A stretch of DNA of 64,000 bases from positions 8,816,501 to 8,880,500 of the forward strand of contig NC_092666.1 in the NCBI RefSeq assembly GCF_032118995.1. The letters run 5' to 3'. This document shows, piece after piece, positions 27,101 through 47,800 of this stretch. Origin of the DNA: Asterias amurensis (Eukaryota; Echinodermata; Asteroidea; Forcipulatida; Asteriidae). The first letter of the stretch is position 1. The number at the start of each line of letters is the position of its first letter. The notes beneath the pieces are model-generated. The model was not told the origin of the DNA. It saw nothing but the letters and a program-made list of their open reading frames with translations, and searched no databases. The position numbers were made by a program, and so were the translations under genes.

Positions 27101-29125
27101 ACTTTTGACAATTGTCAAAGACTAGCCTTCACAGTTGGTGTATCTCAACAAATGCATAAAATAACTAACCTGTGAAAATTTGAGCTCAATCGGTCATCGA
27201 AGTTGCAAGATAATAATGAAAGAAAAAAACACCCTCGCACACAAAGTTGTGTGCGTTTAGATGGTTGATTTCGAGACCTCAAGCTCTAAATCTAAGGTCT
27301 CGAAATCAAATTCGTGGAAAATTACTTCTTTCTCGAAAACTATGGCACTTCAGAGGGAGCCATTTCTCACAATGTTTTATACCATCAATCTCTCCCCATT
27401 ACTCGTCACCAAGAAAAGTTTTATGCTAATAATTATTTTGAGTAATTACCAATAGTGTCCACTGCCTTTAACATTTACTTGGTAACGAGTAACGGAGAGC
27501 TGTTGAAAGTATAAAACATTGTGAGAAACGGCGCCCTCTGAAGTAACGTATAGTTTTTGAGAAAGAGGTAACTTCTCACTCATAATAAAATCCTTCAGCT
27601 GATGCCTTTTACCATGCATCTAACAAGCAAACAAAGTTGTACAAGGGTGTTTTTTCTTCCGTCATTCTCTAGCAACTTATCAATTGAGTCTAAATTTCCA
27701 CAGTTTGTTATTTTATGCGTTGTTATGTTGGGATACATCGATTGAGAATACATCATTGGTATTTGACAACACCAAACGTTTGTTCTTCGGTATAATTTTT
27801 GAAAGATTCCAGTTAATCAATGTCATACCACTCCAAATAAGTTTAACATGAATTTGCATATCTAATTGATGACAGGTGCGAGACCATATCGACTCATGAC
27901 TGCAAAGACAATGGTTGCCCAACTCAAGGAGGGCTACCGTATGCCTAAACCAAGACACTGCAGGGAAGAGCTGTAAGTGAAAGACCAATTCGCCATTTGA
28001 GATAAATGAGAGTGTTGTGGATCTCTTTTCTTTCATCTCTATTTTCCCTTTATATGATGATATCAGAACGATTATAGTTATGCTGGATCGTCATCTTTCT
28101 GTCCATAATACGAGGAAAGCAAGACAAAAATTGGTTGAAGACTATCTTTAGTTTTTAATAATTGAACATCGATCATCAAATCTTAAAGTTCTTCACTAGT
28201 TTTTCTAAACTTCTCTGGATGTTTACCAGATACTCCATGATGAGCAGCTGTTGGCTTCAAAATCCAAACAAGAGACCAACTTTCCGTAGTCTCTTCAAAC
28301 AGTTGGAGAAGAGTCTGACAAATGAAGCGGTAAGAAATTATTTATTTCACTGTGCTTTATGTTGGGAAAGGGTATTGGTGTTTATGGCACCAGGAAGCTG
28401 CCTGAAGCAATTATATTCTTAAGTTTTCTTGTCAAGTCTTGTATCAGTGTTTCTCCACTAAACTCCAGATTGAACTAAACTACTATTTAATCACAATATT
28501 TAACACTTTATACCTTAACTTGCATTGTGTTGGTCTTGGTGTTCGTCCTCAACCAACGTGAATTGAGCTGACGCCAAGCCCATACTCGACCCATTCTTGA
28601 TTACGTAATGCGGATAAACCAATCATCAAAGTCGTTCAACCACATGTAACTTTGTTTTGTTTTATCAGACTCATAACATACTCGATTAATCTACTGCAAT
28701 TGTTAGTGTTCTGTATCCAACGGGTCAGATGACTGAAAGCGTGTCACTTTGGGGCTGGCCCGAGGTGCATGACGTCACCACGACGGGTTGAGTGAACGTT
28801 CAATTAGCTCATGTCAGGGGCTCTCCCGGATGAGCACCGCGGGGTCGACCCAGGGAAGCTAATCGAACGCACCCATAATGTCGATATTATAGAGATCAGT
28901 GGAGTCTAGTCACTCACCCGAACTTGCTCCATGATGTGAAACTGTGTCCAGTGTTATGAAATGCGAGGTGTTTAGATATTGGGATTCTTTGTTTAAACAC
29001 CATTTCGAAAATTTTAAACCAGGATTAACTGTTTTTTTTTTTTACAGGATTACATCGAACTTGGTGATCTGGACGAAAATATCTACGAGGTGACAAAGAT
29101 AAGGGATGACAACGAGAAACTGTGA
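18177..29125 (+). CDS. RTK gene C, complete Ig-domain receptor tyrosine kinase
   Basis: Predicted 755-residue single-pass receptor tyrosine kinase. Exons: 18177-18222 (signal peptide [15 protein letters not shown]), 21251-21565 (Ig1), 21941-22255 (Ig2), 22973-23203 (Ig3), 23449-23496 (Thr/Ser linker), 24116-24284 (helix about residues 328-352, then MRRHR), 24762-24844, 25068-25319, 25614-25724, 26082-26269, 26551-26673, 26780-26891, 27876-27972, 28230-28329 and 29048-29125. Phases agree at every junction. Key residues by my count: GRGAFG 456-461, Lys483, Glu500, Asp591 in HRD, DFG 609-611. Ig pairs are visible ([41 protein letters not shown]). Kinase exon 2 reads LLGYSVEKG where the sister copies have LLGYCVEKG. 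The first intron holds an LTR-element fragment. Kinase and introns are nearly identical to gene A. The ligand is unknown. Confidence 0.85.
18560..19820 (-). repeat. 84-bp tandem array
   Basis: An 84-bp unit (28 codons) repeats about 14 times, with irregular part-units carrying GCGGAGCTCCGCACGGAGCT. On the - strand each unit encodes variants of [10 protein letters not shown] and [12 protein letters not shown]. The period was measured between 18,961 and 19,045. Because the period is a multiple of three, several frames are open on both strands by construction. Confidence 0.85.
19899..20270 (-). repeat. 66-bp tandem array next to the LTR leader
   Basis: About six diverged copies of a 66-bp unit. 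On the - strand each encodes a 22-residue unit of the type [18 protein letters not shown]. It lies between the 84-bp array and the leader of the LTR fragment and is in the same open frame. Confidence 0.8.
20574..20831 (-). repeat. LTR-like terminal segment
   Basis: 258 bp with inverted ends (TGTAACA at one end, TGTTACA at the other). Read on the - strand it contains TATAAAG and then AATAAAA, as an LTR promoter and poly(A) signal would. It abuts a remnant of a GGCAGTGG-family foldback element at 20,832. Confidence 0.6.
20832..20930. repeat. Remnant of a GGCAGTGG-family foldback element
   Basis: Contains ATACCATCAACCTCTCCCCA through AGTAATTACCAAA, the right-hand interior of the element that is more complete at 6,587-6,953 in gene B. 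Its left portion is missing at the edge of the LTR fragment. Confidence 0.65.
21837..21935 (+). repeat. (TTTG)n microsatellite at the gene C Ig2 acceptor
   Basis: About 25 uninterrupted TTTG units end within 6 bases of the TCTAG acceptor of the Ig2 exon, taking the place of the polypyrimidine tract. Gene B has two or three units at its working Ig2 and about 14 at its broken one. Confidence 0.9.
27041..27790. repeat. Old foldback element in gene C, split by a younger one
   Basis: Same diverged element as 2,081-2,420 in gene A (AGACACTTGACACAATTGG, then GTGAGAAACGGCGCCC), but here divided into two parts by the copy at 27,086-27,471. Confidence 0.6.
27086..27471. repeat. Young TIR foldback element with visible empty site
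   Basis: Starts TTAAAGGCAGTGGACAC and ends GTGTCCACTGCCTTTAA, with a fully mirrored interior. Gene A reads GTAAGCATAAACATTTAC across this point without the element, which fits insertion at a TA with TA duplication. It therefore moved after A and C separated. Confidence 0.85.
28786..28892. repeat. Partial TIR element (GGGTGCGTTCG family)
   Basis: The right end GGGAAGCTAATCGAACGCACCC is clear; the left end GTGAACGTTCAATTAGCTC is a weaker inverted match. A full member of the family is at 61,796-61,951, and a third partial copy starts near 55,612. Confidence 0.55.
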
Positions 29126-44870: not shown

Positions 44871-47800
44871 CTTGCATCTTGTTTTTAGACAGGAATGTTT
44901 TAATTGTATTGAACCAGAAGAACGTCAAAAGACTCTTTTGGATTTTTCTCGTGAGAGTTGGCAGCAAACTCTCACAGTTTCTCGTCCTCATCCCTTATCT
45001 TTTTCACCTCGTACATATTTCGTCCAGATCAAACAGCCCGATGTAATCTTTAAAAAAAAAAAAAAAAAAAACAAGTTGACACCGTTTCACACTGCATGGT
45101 GCCGTCTCTCCTGTACGAACTGCGCGCGCACTTTCAGTCATCTGACCCGTTGGATACAATCAACTCATTTTCATGAGTCTGATTGAACAAAAATACGTCA
45201 TGTGAGGTTGAACGACATCGGCGAATCATTGGTTTATCCACGCTACAATCAAGATTGCGTCGAGTATGTTGCGAGTCGTGAGCTCAGCTTCACGTTGGGC
45301 TGTACCACTAACAAGAAAAAAGAAGGAAAAAAAAAAAAAAAAAAACAATACTAATTCTAATTATTGAGAATAATTCTCGATGATATTTCAAGTTCTTTAT
45401 GGTATTTCATGATTTTATATCATGATGAAGAATAATCAATGAATAAACAAGAATGAACACACTGCAAGTTATTGTGTGAAATTGTAAAGATTGTTGTTAA
45501 AAAGTAGTAGGTTAAATCTTTCCCAACATAATGCCAAGAAATAAGTTATGAAAGACCCATTATAAGATTACCTTTTCATTTGTCAGACTCTTCTCCATCT
45601 GCTTGAAGAGACTATACGGAAAGTTGGTCTCTTGTTTGGATTTTGAAGCCAACAGCTGCTCATCATGGAATACCTGATCAACATCAAAAGAAGTTTGGAA
45701 AGTTAGTGAATACTCGCGGGAAATTTGACGATCGATGTTCAAGTATACAAAACTAAAGATCTTCTTTATTTTTGTCTCACCATCCTCATCATTATAAAAA
45801 AAAAAAAACGGTCGAGCATAACTTAATTAATCATTCTGATGTCAATATGAAAAGGGAAAACAGAGCTGAAAGAAATGAAGTTAAAAAAAACTCTCATTTA
45901 TCTCAAATGAAAGCTGGCCTTTCACTTACAGCTCTTCCCTGCAGTGTCTTGGTTTAGGCATACCTTGAGTTGAACAACCATTGTCTTTGCATTCATGAGT
46001 CGATATGGCCTCGCACCTGTTATTATGCAAATTTATGTAAGACTAATTAGTAAGCGTTTATATGACATTAATCAAGTTGAATCTTTCAAATATTTCAACT
46101 GATGAGATAACCATCGGGTGCCATATTGTTTTCCCAAGTACTCGCTGTGAAGCGAAATTTTAAATTGAAGGTAACTGGCAGCAGAGAAGGTTTCTAACTG
46201 TAATGCCCTCTATACATCATAATCATCTCACCAAGAGTAACGATCTCCCAAAGGAGAATCCCAAAAGACCATACGTCACTCTCTGTTGTGTACACGTCAT
46301 CAAGAAGGGATTCCAATGCCATCCAGCGCATGGGCAGAACTCCCTGCAATGCAGAGAAGAAACAAAAGATAACATTCTCATTTCCGATTTGAAACCCACG
46401 TAATGTGAAGAGCAAATTACAAAGTAAGAAACATCGTGTTGGCTGATTACCTCTGATTCGCGCTGGTAGATGCGGACATTCATGACGTCACGGGCCAGTC
46501 CAAAGTCAGCCACCTTACAGACCATGTCTTCACTTACCAGAACGTTACGGGCAGCCAGATCACGATGGATACACTGAGGGGTCGAGAAAGAATTACAACT
46601 TATGACTCAAAACACATCAATAACACAATTTCCGCATTATGTCAGTTTGTTCTTCGCTCAAAACTCAACACGTGACTTCAGTGTGACGCAAATCATTTTT
46701 ATCGCATAATCTTTCATTAGTTGATGACCTCTCGGTCCAAAATTATCAAAACTGATTCTGCAGAACCAATCAAACACCACATTGATTAATGTCACAAATA
46801 CAAAGTCAGTCTTTTGCAATAATTATTGTAACTTAATGTTACAAATTAACTAACCTTTTGTGACGACAAGAAGGCCATTCCACTAGCCACATCTCTGGCA
46901 AACTTGATCAATGTCTTAGAGAGTGATTTACTTATACCATGTATGTTGGAGTAGCCAGTTCCAGTGTCTTCAGATCTACATCCAATCAGAACCTTCTTAA
47001 GGTCACCTTTACTGAGATATTCAACGACGACGTAGATGGGATCTGGTGATAGAAATAACCATGGATACCAAGAATCATTCAAACTACATTCAAACATCGA
47101 GTCTTAGAAACCTTCAGGGCCCGCCCGATTTCACAAAGCAATACAATTCATCGCAAAACATATCGTCAGTAATACCTTTTAGTGATTTGTATTGTGACAT
47201 CCACTTTAATTTGTAGCAACTACGATTGATTTGCCTTTAAGATCTACCTAAGTTCTTTGTGAAAGTCCACAACTTCTTCCGTCAGCAAAACACACACAAA
47301 AATATCCCTTATTTTTGTTTCCATCCTGTGACAACACTGCACCAACCTCGTCCCTGTAAATGGATATATCTAACCAAGAGTGACGTTCGAATTAAAACGA
47401 GGTTAAAATACGGAACTTCCATTGTACCAAGTCAGCCATTTTGAACTGATGGTGTTAAGATGCTACTAGTATTTATTATTTGTTAACCATTTAACTTGAG
47501 AGGATCAAACTGTTTTCATTATGTGTTGTTGTTTACCTTTCTCTACACAGTATCCCAATAGATTGACCACGTGTGGATGTGAACCCACTTTCTTCATCAG
47601 GTCCAACTCCTGCAGGAGGCCGGTCTTTGCTTGTCCATCAGCACCATCTACAAAATGTAAACCTTGGTGAAATGTTCTTGTTTTTAGTGCGAAAACAATT
47701 TATCTTGTACTTTGTATAAATTTCTGTTATAATGAGAAACTGAATCATGCAAAATGTCTAATGTGCAAATCTCGCGAATATTTAGACGATTTGGGAACCA

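Follow-up and report, generated by a model that had tools for sequence, protein, structure and literature searches.

A composite palindrome of FGFR-like receptor and UBL-ART genes in Asterias amurensis, probably founded on one old inverted duplication

We analyzed a 64,000-nucleotide stretch of the Asterias amurensis genome (C19:8,816,501-8,880,500, referred to here as the window), in which two receptor kinase units, C and D, converge on a pair of oppositely oriented genes, ART1 and ART2, whose products combine a ubiquitin-like (UBL) part with a putative ADP-ribosyltransferase (ART) domain. In each arm, FGFR-like receptor sequence is followed by a stretch rich in AT and by a UBL-ART gene that is intact, with ART1 and ART2 facing the 3' ends of receptors C and D. 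We estimate a probability of roughly 0.6 that the arms go back to a single old inverted block duplication, followed by gene conversion or unequal exchange and by receptor decay. With moderate confidence, sequence comparison suggests that this one duplication carried the distal 3' flank of the receptor, the AT-rich stretch and the ART gene.

Receptor and ART comparisons were run on 264 kb, made up of the window and 200 kb of neighbouring sequence; all coordinates are those of the window, with negative values and values above 64,000 lying outside it. Genome-wide searches spanned 491.5 Mb in 23 contigs. Contig 23 (16,427 bp) encodes mitochondrial proteins in its first 6 kb, where two long frames on the opposite strand from cox1 look, by eye, like nad1 and nad2; such a mitochondrion alongside 22 chromosomes would fit a starfish. 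Boundaries of the receptor units Z, A, B, C and D were set by blastn and exons by tblastn. Synonymous (Ks) and nonsynonymous (Ka) divergences and neutral distances were estimated per segment and are given with intervals in brackets; trees were unrooted, and their splits are given with paired support values.

Self-comparison revealed inverted collinear homology between 17,875-32,986 and 55,081-39,746, in eight pieces that lie in order (Table 1). An earlier reading of this stretch from its letters alone (the sequence-only reading) had proposed a mirror-image arrangement with a UBL-ART gene in each arm, and had named as its check a dot plot with an inverted diagonal outside the two ART genes. Such a diagonal was found, since the homology runs through introns, the receptor 3' flank and the AT-rich stretch besides the ART genes, both of which have intact reading frames on opposite strands; the mirror image was thus borne out and is wider than had been claimed, though it is composite. 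The outer part of the diagonal is patchy, and additional inverted matches off the line involve tandem immunoglobulin (Ig) exons, miniature inverted-repeat transposable elements (MITEs) and internal repeats of the AT-rich stretch. The collinear opposite-strand homology includes non-coding DNA, and the whole arms are not the product of one copying event, the Ig exons of C and D being at or near saturation and nearest neighbours varying by segment. At the inner end the homology stops abruptly, about 100 bp upstream of the start codon of either ART gene.

The distances within the inner arm are compatible with one event. ART1 and ART2 are 81% identical and differ by a Ks of 0.199 [0.144-0.264], and their flanks differ by 0.317 [0.163-0.572] on the 3' side and 0.320 [0.144-0.526] on the 5' side. 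Between C and D we measured 0.24-0.33 in the AT-rich element, 0.215 and 0.314 in the receptor flanks and 0.252 in the kinase introns, so that arm against arm the neutral distance is about 0.2-0.33. Whole-gene Ka/Ks of ART1 and ART2 is 0.59 [0.40-0.85], pointing to purifying selection overall. The AT-rich flank that had been described as common to both arms was recovered with a score of 267 bits for the left/right pairing (30,657-31,318 against 43,514-42,892), as compared to 42 bits for the best of 60 dinucleotide-shuffled controls.

The receptor units form a concertedly evolving cluster around this locus. Units in direct orientation are Z (-22.3 to -10.1 kb), A (-5.9 to 4.7 kb), B (5.8 to 17.0 kb) and C (17.8 to 29.6 kb), and those in reverse orientation are D (55.1 to 44.5 kb), the relic E (58.2 to 56.0 kb) and the Ig-only cassette F (-31.9 to -29.7 kb). 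In tblastn, a unit as complete as C comprises three Ig exons, one transmembrane (TM) exon and seven kinase exons (E1-E7).

The idea that the receptor halves are mirror copies of each other did not survive comparison with these units, as C differs from D in ectodomain type and has kinase introns nearly identical to those of A and Z. Exons IG1 and IG2 fall into two types, A/B/C and Z/D/F (100/100 support each), and IG3 separates B and C from all others, including A (100/100). Ks between C and D is 2.1 in IG1, 1.6 in IG2 and 1.5-2.2 in IG3; between Z and D it is 0.19, 0.07 and 0.25-0.29, respectively. Across kinase exons E1-E5, C and D differ by a Ks of 0.081, and in the kinase introns C is separated by 0.036 from A, 0.041 from Z and 0.252 from D. 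Sliding identity between C and A (200-base windows; two windows over a MITE gave no data) was 0.93-1.00 in 18 of 18 scorable windows in 24,293-28,292 and 0.61-0.86 beyond. The last window, 29,493-29,630, is the sole scorable one that puts C nearer to D (0.84) than to Z, A or B (0.70-0.73). Across the entire distal flank (29,012-29,630 in C) the C-D distance is 0.215 [0.156-0.280] versus 0.235-0.252 [0.170-0.325] between C and Z, A or B, and the tree of this flank gives full support to the split CD|ZAB. In the TM segment the C-D distance is nominally the lowest (0.151 versus 0.155-0.182, with overlapping intervals), and the tree places D with Z (99/97). The possibility that C and D are recent mutual copies was rejected, C being far closer to A than to D in all but, nominally, the TM segment. 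We also dropped the end of the distal flank as a junction unique to C and D, because the sequence of Z, A and B at that place may be a diverged homologue.

These observations suggest a history in which a segment comprising the 3' part of a receptor, the AT-rich stretch and a UBL-ART gene was duplicated in inverted orientation, giving two arms around a spacer, after which the arms diverged to about 0.2-0.33 neutral substitutions per site. The left receptor would then have been overwritten from its 5' side by its neighbours in the tandem array, through conversion or unequal exchange, with its tie to the right arm surviving only inward of about 29.5 kb. The right receptor has a type-2 ectodomain and a kinase C-lobe that is frameshifted. 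A minisatellite of a dispersed family may have expanded within the spacer, and the receptor and ART genes would remain neighbours through joint copying, not selection. The proposal of the sequence-only reading that receptor and UBL-ART gene were copied as one block is probably right, in this reconstruction, for the inner arm, whose distal receptor flank, AT-rich stretch and ART gene have compatible neutral distances, and is not supported for receptor C as it stands.

Several observations weigh against this duplication history. Ks between ART1 and ART2 is uneven (0.49 in the N-terminal part, 0.05 in UBL, 0.32 in the linker and 0.13 in ART), which blurs the date, and the Ka/Ks interval includes 1 in three of the four domains (N-terminal, UBL and ART). 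Identity of the two genes is 0.88-0.97 in eight windows covering 40,188-40,987 but drops to 0.59-0.83 in the other seven, an unevenness matched in none of 500 shuffles that suggests either conversion between the ART genes or uneven constraint. On the receptor side, the affinity between C and D comes down to the AT-rich stretch and some 140 bp of flank, and the distal-flank intervals of C-D and C-Z/A/B overlap. The split CD|ZAB recurs in the proximal flank (86/89) and is not by itself proof that C and D are sisters; therefore branch lengths, not topology, carry the argument for C and D. The AT-rich stretch may itself belong to every receptor flank, because local blastn detected weak similarity to it, above controls, in the sequence that lies 3' of Z, A and B. 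Lastly, the right arm is 1.6 kb longer where receptor side meets ART side, and the position of this join may differ between the arms.

The same observations leave room for an alternative in which no block was copied, and an inverted ART pair inserted itself or originated between two receptor units whose face-to-face arrangement was older; any head-to-head pair between convergent receptors would appear mirror-symmetric. C and D are indeed different receptor subtypes, and the clearly ART-linked homology covers just 31,313-32,986 and 41,291-39,746, about 1.7 kb. Moreover, the 3' flank is common to all of Z, A, B, C and D, and therefore the pairing of C with D needs no ART gene. Yet both 29,493-29,630 and the AT-rich element pair C with D better than with Z, A or B, and receptor flank and ART flank have diverged to compatible degrees. 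This alternative retains about a quarter of our belief, because the receptor-side bond between C and D is short.

The block has two copies. A third copy of the pairing had been seen in relic E and a further UBL-ART gene, ART3, but ART3 lies on the 5' side of E, which is on the minus strand, and the two point apart. Ks between ART3 and ART1 or ART2 is saturated (Ka 0.46-0.51), and relic E differs from the five other units by a Ks of 0.05-0.13 in exon E3 (58 codons). The AT-rich element behind ART3 is 0.20 from the D copy and 0.28 from the C copy, as young as the arms. Because of the saturated ART3 Ks against the low Ks of E, the geometry of E and ART3, and the flipped AT-rich element, ART3 is on sequence grounds an old paralogue of ART1 and ART2, and the third locus no simple block copy; the E/ART3 pair was rejected as a third copy on the geometry and on the saturated Ks. 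A genome search with the third AT-rich copy, which skips very common words, gave five matches, all within the three ART loci (4 of 4 candidates scored).

The linkage of receptor and UBL-ART gene had been left open as either joint function or block duplication, and here the latter is favoured. That the two were kept together because they cooperate, as a receptor and its downstream modifier, could be argued from their confinement: the genome search for ART retrieved three matches, ART1, ART2 and ART3 (4 of 4 candidates scored), all at this locus, and the intact genes and one relic all lie within this receptor cluster. Against this, ART2 is intact next to a frameshifted kinase and ART3 next to a relic, and units Z, A and B are without an ART gene in tblastn of the 264 kb, which placed ART sequence at 31.8-32.9, 39.8-41.0, 58.8-60.0 and (relic) 60.2-60.5 kb, plus one weak low-complexity piece within ART3 on the opposite strand. 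With two of the three intact ART genes beside a broken receptor (D and E) and none at Z, A and B, the neighbours were probably kept by shared copying, and we consider cooperation quite improbable. Which of two paired genes decays offers a simple test of hitchhiking versus functional linkage. An assembly artefact that falsely duplicated one arm can be set aside almost entirely, since although tandem repeats and near-identical units are generally hard to assemble, the neutral distance between the arms excludes an assembly duplicate, the arms are 73.6-86.4% identical in the C-D and ART1-ART2 segments compared, they differ in insertions and ectodomains, and the 264 kb contain 0 N.

The spacer between the arms is unpaired, with no match between its edges, 32,987-33,733 and 38,210-39,745. 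It had been described as a palindrome centre filled by a 4.5 kb minisatellite, which does sit between ART1 and ART2 and occupies about two thirds of the spacer, the remainder being other sequence. The minisatellite family gave 452 genome matches, with nine contigs among the matches listed, and the notion that it is peculiar to this locus was rejected in view of this dispersal. The MITEs, said to occupy the same place in both arms, lie at different positions (Table 1) and were rejected as markers of one shared site. A palindromic MITE remnant at about 28,737-28,895 is without a counterpart at the mirrored place of D. In both arms a shared sequence is followed directly by an insert (29,638 and 44,519), and the two inserts are unlike each other.

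Palindromes and inverted segmental duplications with conversion occur in multigene clusters, for example the palindromes of the primate Y chromosome. Like these, the present locus has two inverted arms, an unpaired spacer and a patchwork of identity consistent with conversion; unlike them, it has arms of considerable age (about 0.2-0.33), and the left receptor has apparently converted with a direct tandem array and not with the opposite arm. A palindrome that looks clean can thus be a composite, here of inner arms that are old and an outer part that was overwritten more recently. Among echinoderm gene clusters, the sea urchin Sp185/333 (SpTransformer) genes show tandem repeats, segmental duplications and proposed gene conversion (PMC5103432), as does the cluster described here. 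In contrast to Sp185/333, our cluster comprises receptor kinases with broken members, and its minisatellite is seen in one spacer rather than as a demonstrated border of each unit.

Table 1. Features of the window, in window coordinates. Diagonal pieces are given as left arm / right arm.
Feature	Position	Strand	Description
Diagonal piece 1	17,875-18,293 / 55,081-54,666		
Diagonal piece 2	22,927-23,211 / 51,051-50,764		
Diagonal piece 3	23,335-23,539 / 49,587-49,366		
Diagonal piece 4	23,893-24,478 / 49,291-48,649		
Diagonal piece 5	24,635-27,078 / 48,664-46,045		
Diagonal piece 6	27,770-31,318 / 46,120-42,892		
Diagonal piece 7	31,313-31,442 / 41,291-41,159		
Diagonal piece 8	31,646-32,986 / 41,098-39,746		
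Receptor unit C, left arm	17,800-29,640	plus	exons open; FGFR-like kinase; ectodomain type 1; 3' flank to ~29,630
Receptor C, Ig exons	21,268-21,564; 21,943-22,257; 22,981-23,199	plus	tblastn
Receptor C, TM exon	24,142-24,243	plus	tblastn
Receptor C, kinase exons E1-E7	25,085-28,326	plus	tblastn
Left MITE	27,083-27,471		intron between kinase exons E5 and E6 of receptor C
Receptor C, end of distal 3' flank	29,493-29,638	plus	closer to D than to Z, A and B
Left-arm insertion	29,641-30,656	none	parts match dispersed places in the 264 kb; absent from right arm
AT-rich element, left copy	30,657-31,318	plus	71% to 43,514-42,892
ART1	31,756-32,868	minus	intact single-exon UBL-ART open reading frame (ORF), 371 aa; Pfam ubiquitin 7.3e-8
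Unpaired central spacer	32,987-39,745	none	6.8 kb
Minisatellite	33,734-38,209	none	TRF; periods 48/51/99; 4.5 kb
MITE in spacer	38,571-38,967	plus	same family as left MITE, 89%
ART2	39,846-40,988	plus	intact single-exon UBL-ART ORF, 381 aa
AT-rich element, right copy	42,361-43,514	minus	
Right MITE	44,153-44,512		downstream of receptor D, directly after its distal flank
Receptor unit D, right arm	44,519-55,081	minus	ectodomain type 2; three tandem IG3 exons; kinase E1-E5 open
Receptor relic E	56,001-58,193	minus, as D	pieces of E2, E3, E4 (tblastn), E5 end (blastn, ORF)
ART3	58,766-59,962	plus	intact ORF, 399 aa; 51% aa identity to ART1/2; outside the inverted block
ART4 relic	60,013-60,576	plus	internally deleted partial ART3 copy (blastn, tblastn)
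AT-rich element, third copy	60,756-61,704	plus	flipped relative to its own ART gene, compared with the copies at ART1/2

On weak evidence, ART1-3 probably encode intracellular proteins that combine UBL with a divergent domain of PARP-like type, and ADP-ribose transfer is a putative activity. Against the ubiquitin model PF00240 (cut-off 25.4) ART1 scored 32.5, ART2 30.0 and ART3, below the threshold, 24.2; ART3 clears Rad60-SLD (26.9; cut-off 23.8), so that each protein passes some ubiquitin-like family cut-off. The PARP model PF00644 (cut-off 26.7) was not reached by the whole proteins (13.9, 14.2 and 15.7 bits) or by the ART2 domain (15.9). The best E-value for PARP was 0.0023, the C-terminal half matched a Tpt1-type RNA 2'-phosphotransferase profile locally (6.9e-4, 40 residues), and hhalign against two PARPs of the same genome aligned the H and Y motifs (Prob 1.1, E 0.048). 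An H-G-T motif is invariant and Y-[TS]-S conserved across ART1-3, as in PARP-like ADP-ribosyltransferases, whose motif table includes both (PMC7955679). The proteins differ from that family in the UBL-ART domain order and in scoring below the Pfam cut-off. The third catalytic position may be a tyrosine, judging by eye from two PARP frames of the same genome. AlphaFold2 models were unusable (mean pLDDT 31.9 and 36.0). Relatives were found in none of the viral contigs, prokaryote genomes or PADLOC searched, and phage records gave three weak places only, at E 3 or worse. The titles and abstract openings listed in our literature searches held nothing on UBL-ART proteins or expanded Ig receptor kinases in echinoderms. 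With an ART half that passes no family-model threshold, these genes could be assayed.

The joined kinase exons of receptor C, in which the catalytic motifs are present, encode a tyrosine kinase nearest to FGFR, with FGFR1 as the best solved-structure match (1e-81; among the best 60 of 1413), and the three Ig ORFs scanned had V-set or C2-set_2 as best models. By sequence the receptor is an FGFR-like Ig receptor kinase, for which FGF binding is putative. It shares the Ig-Ig-Ig-TM-kinase order with FGF receptors and differs from them in having two ectodomain subtypes on nearly the same kinase. Receptor D has lost 10 nt in E6 and gained 2 nt in E7; its kinase is unlikely to work because, although the deletion leaves a possible splice donor, the segment after it stays misread. 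A genome search for tyrosine kinases retrieved at least 150 matches with 132 of 953 candidates scored, so that its counts are lower bounds.

Exon E4 of receptor C (26,551-26,673), which encodes the catalytic loop, DFG and activation loop, is nearly identical to 169,934-170,053 and 205,966-206,085 (Ks 0.04 and 0.12). These belong to receptors about 143 and 179 kb away, in which Ks is at least 1.6, near or at saturation, for E1, E2, E3 and E6 and 0.47 for E5. The tract of near-identity starts and stops sharply near the exon edges, and in a genome search 9 of 16 E4 matches were 94-100% identical, all in C19 8.55-9.02 Mb, with the next match at 84% or less. Exon-sized gene conversion is the likely origin of this pattern. 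A broader and rather doubtful idea is that of an exon-modular, receptor-diversifying cluster, in which ectodomain cassettes would be swapped between tandem and inverted units, and the kinase, above all E4, would be homogenised by exon-sized conversion even with subfamilies 140-180 kb off; the UBL-ART genes would ride along, possibly as a paired defence effector. The cluster offers a compact case of swapped ectodomains on a homogenised kinase.

Further variation was seen in the ectodomain exons. Two of the three tandem IG3 exons of receptor D (50,754-52,239) lie within 489-bp repeats that are 98% identical. Unit A (-5930 to 4721) is a chimera that joins type-1 IG1 and IG2 to two copies of a type-2 IG3, of which one is partial. 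Cassette F (-31,870 to -29,683, minus strand) is of type 2 and holds Ig exons only, with no kinase exon downstream as far as -60 kb. The upstream part of receptor C contains, at 18,610-20,274, GC-rich tandem arrays with 42/84/114/126-bp and 66-bp units, and the long open frames on both strands of these arrays look like repeat artefacts.

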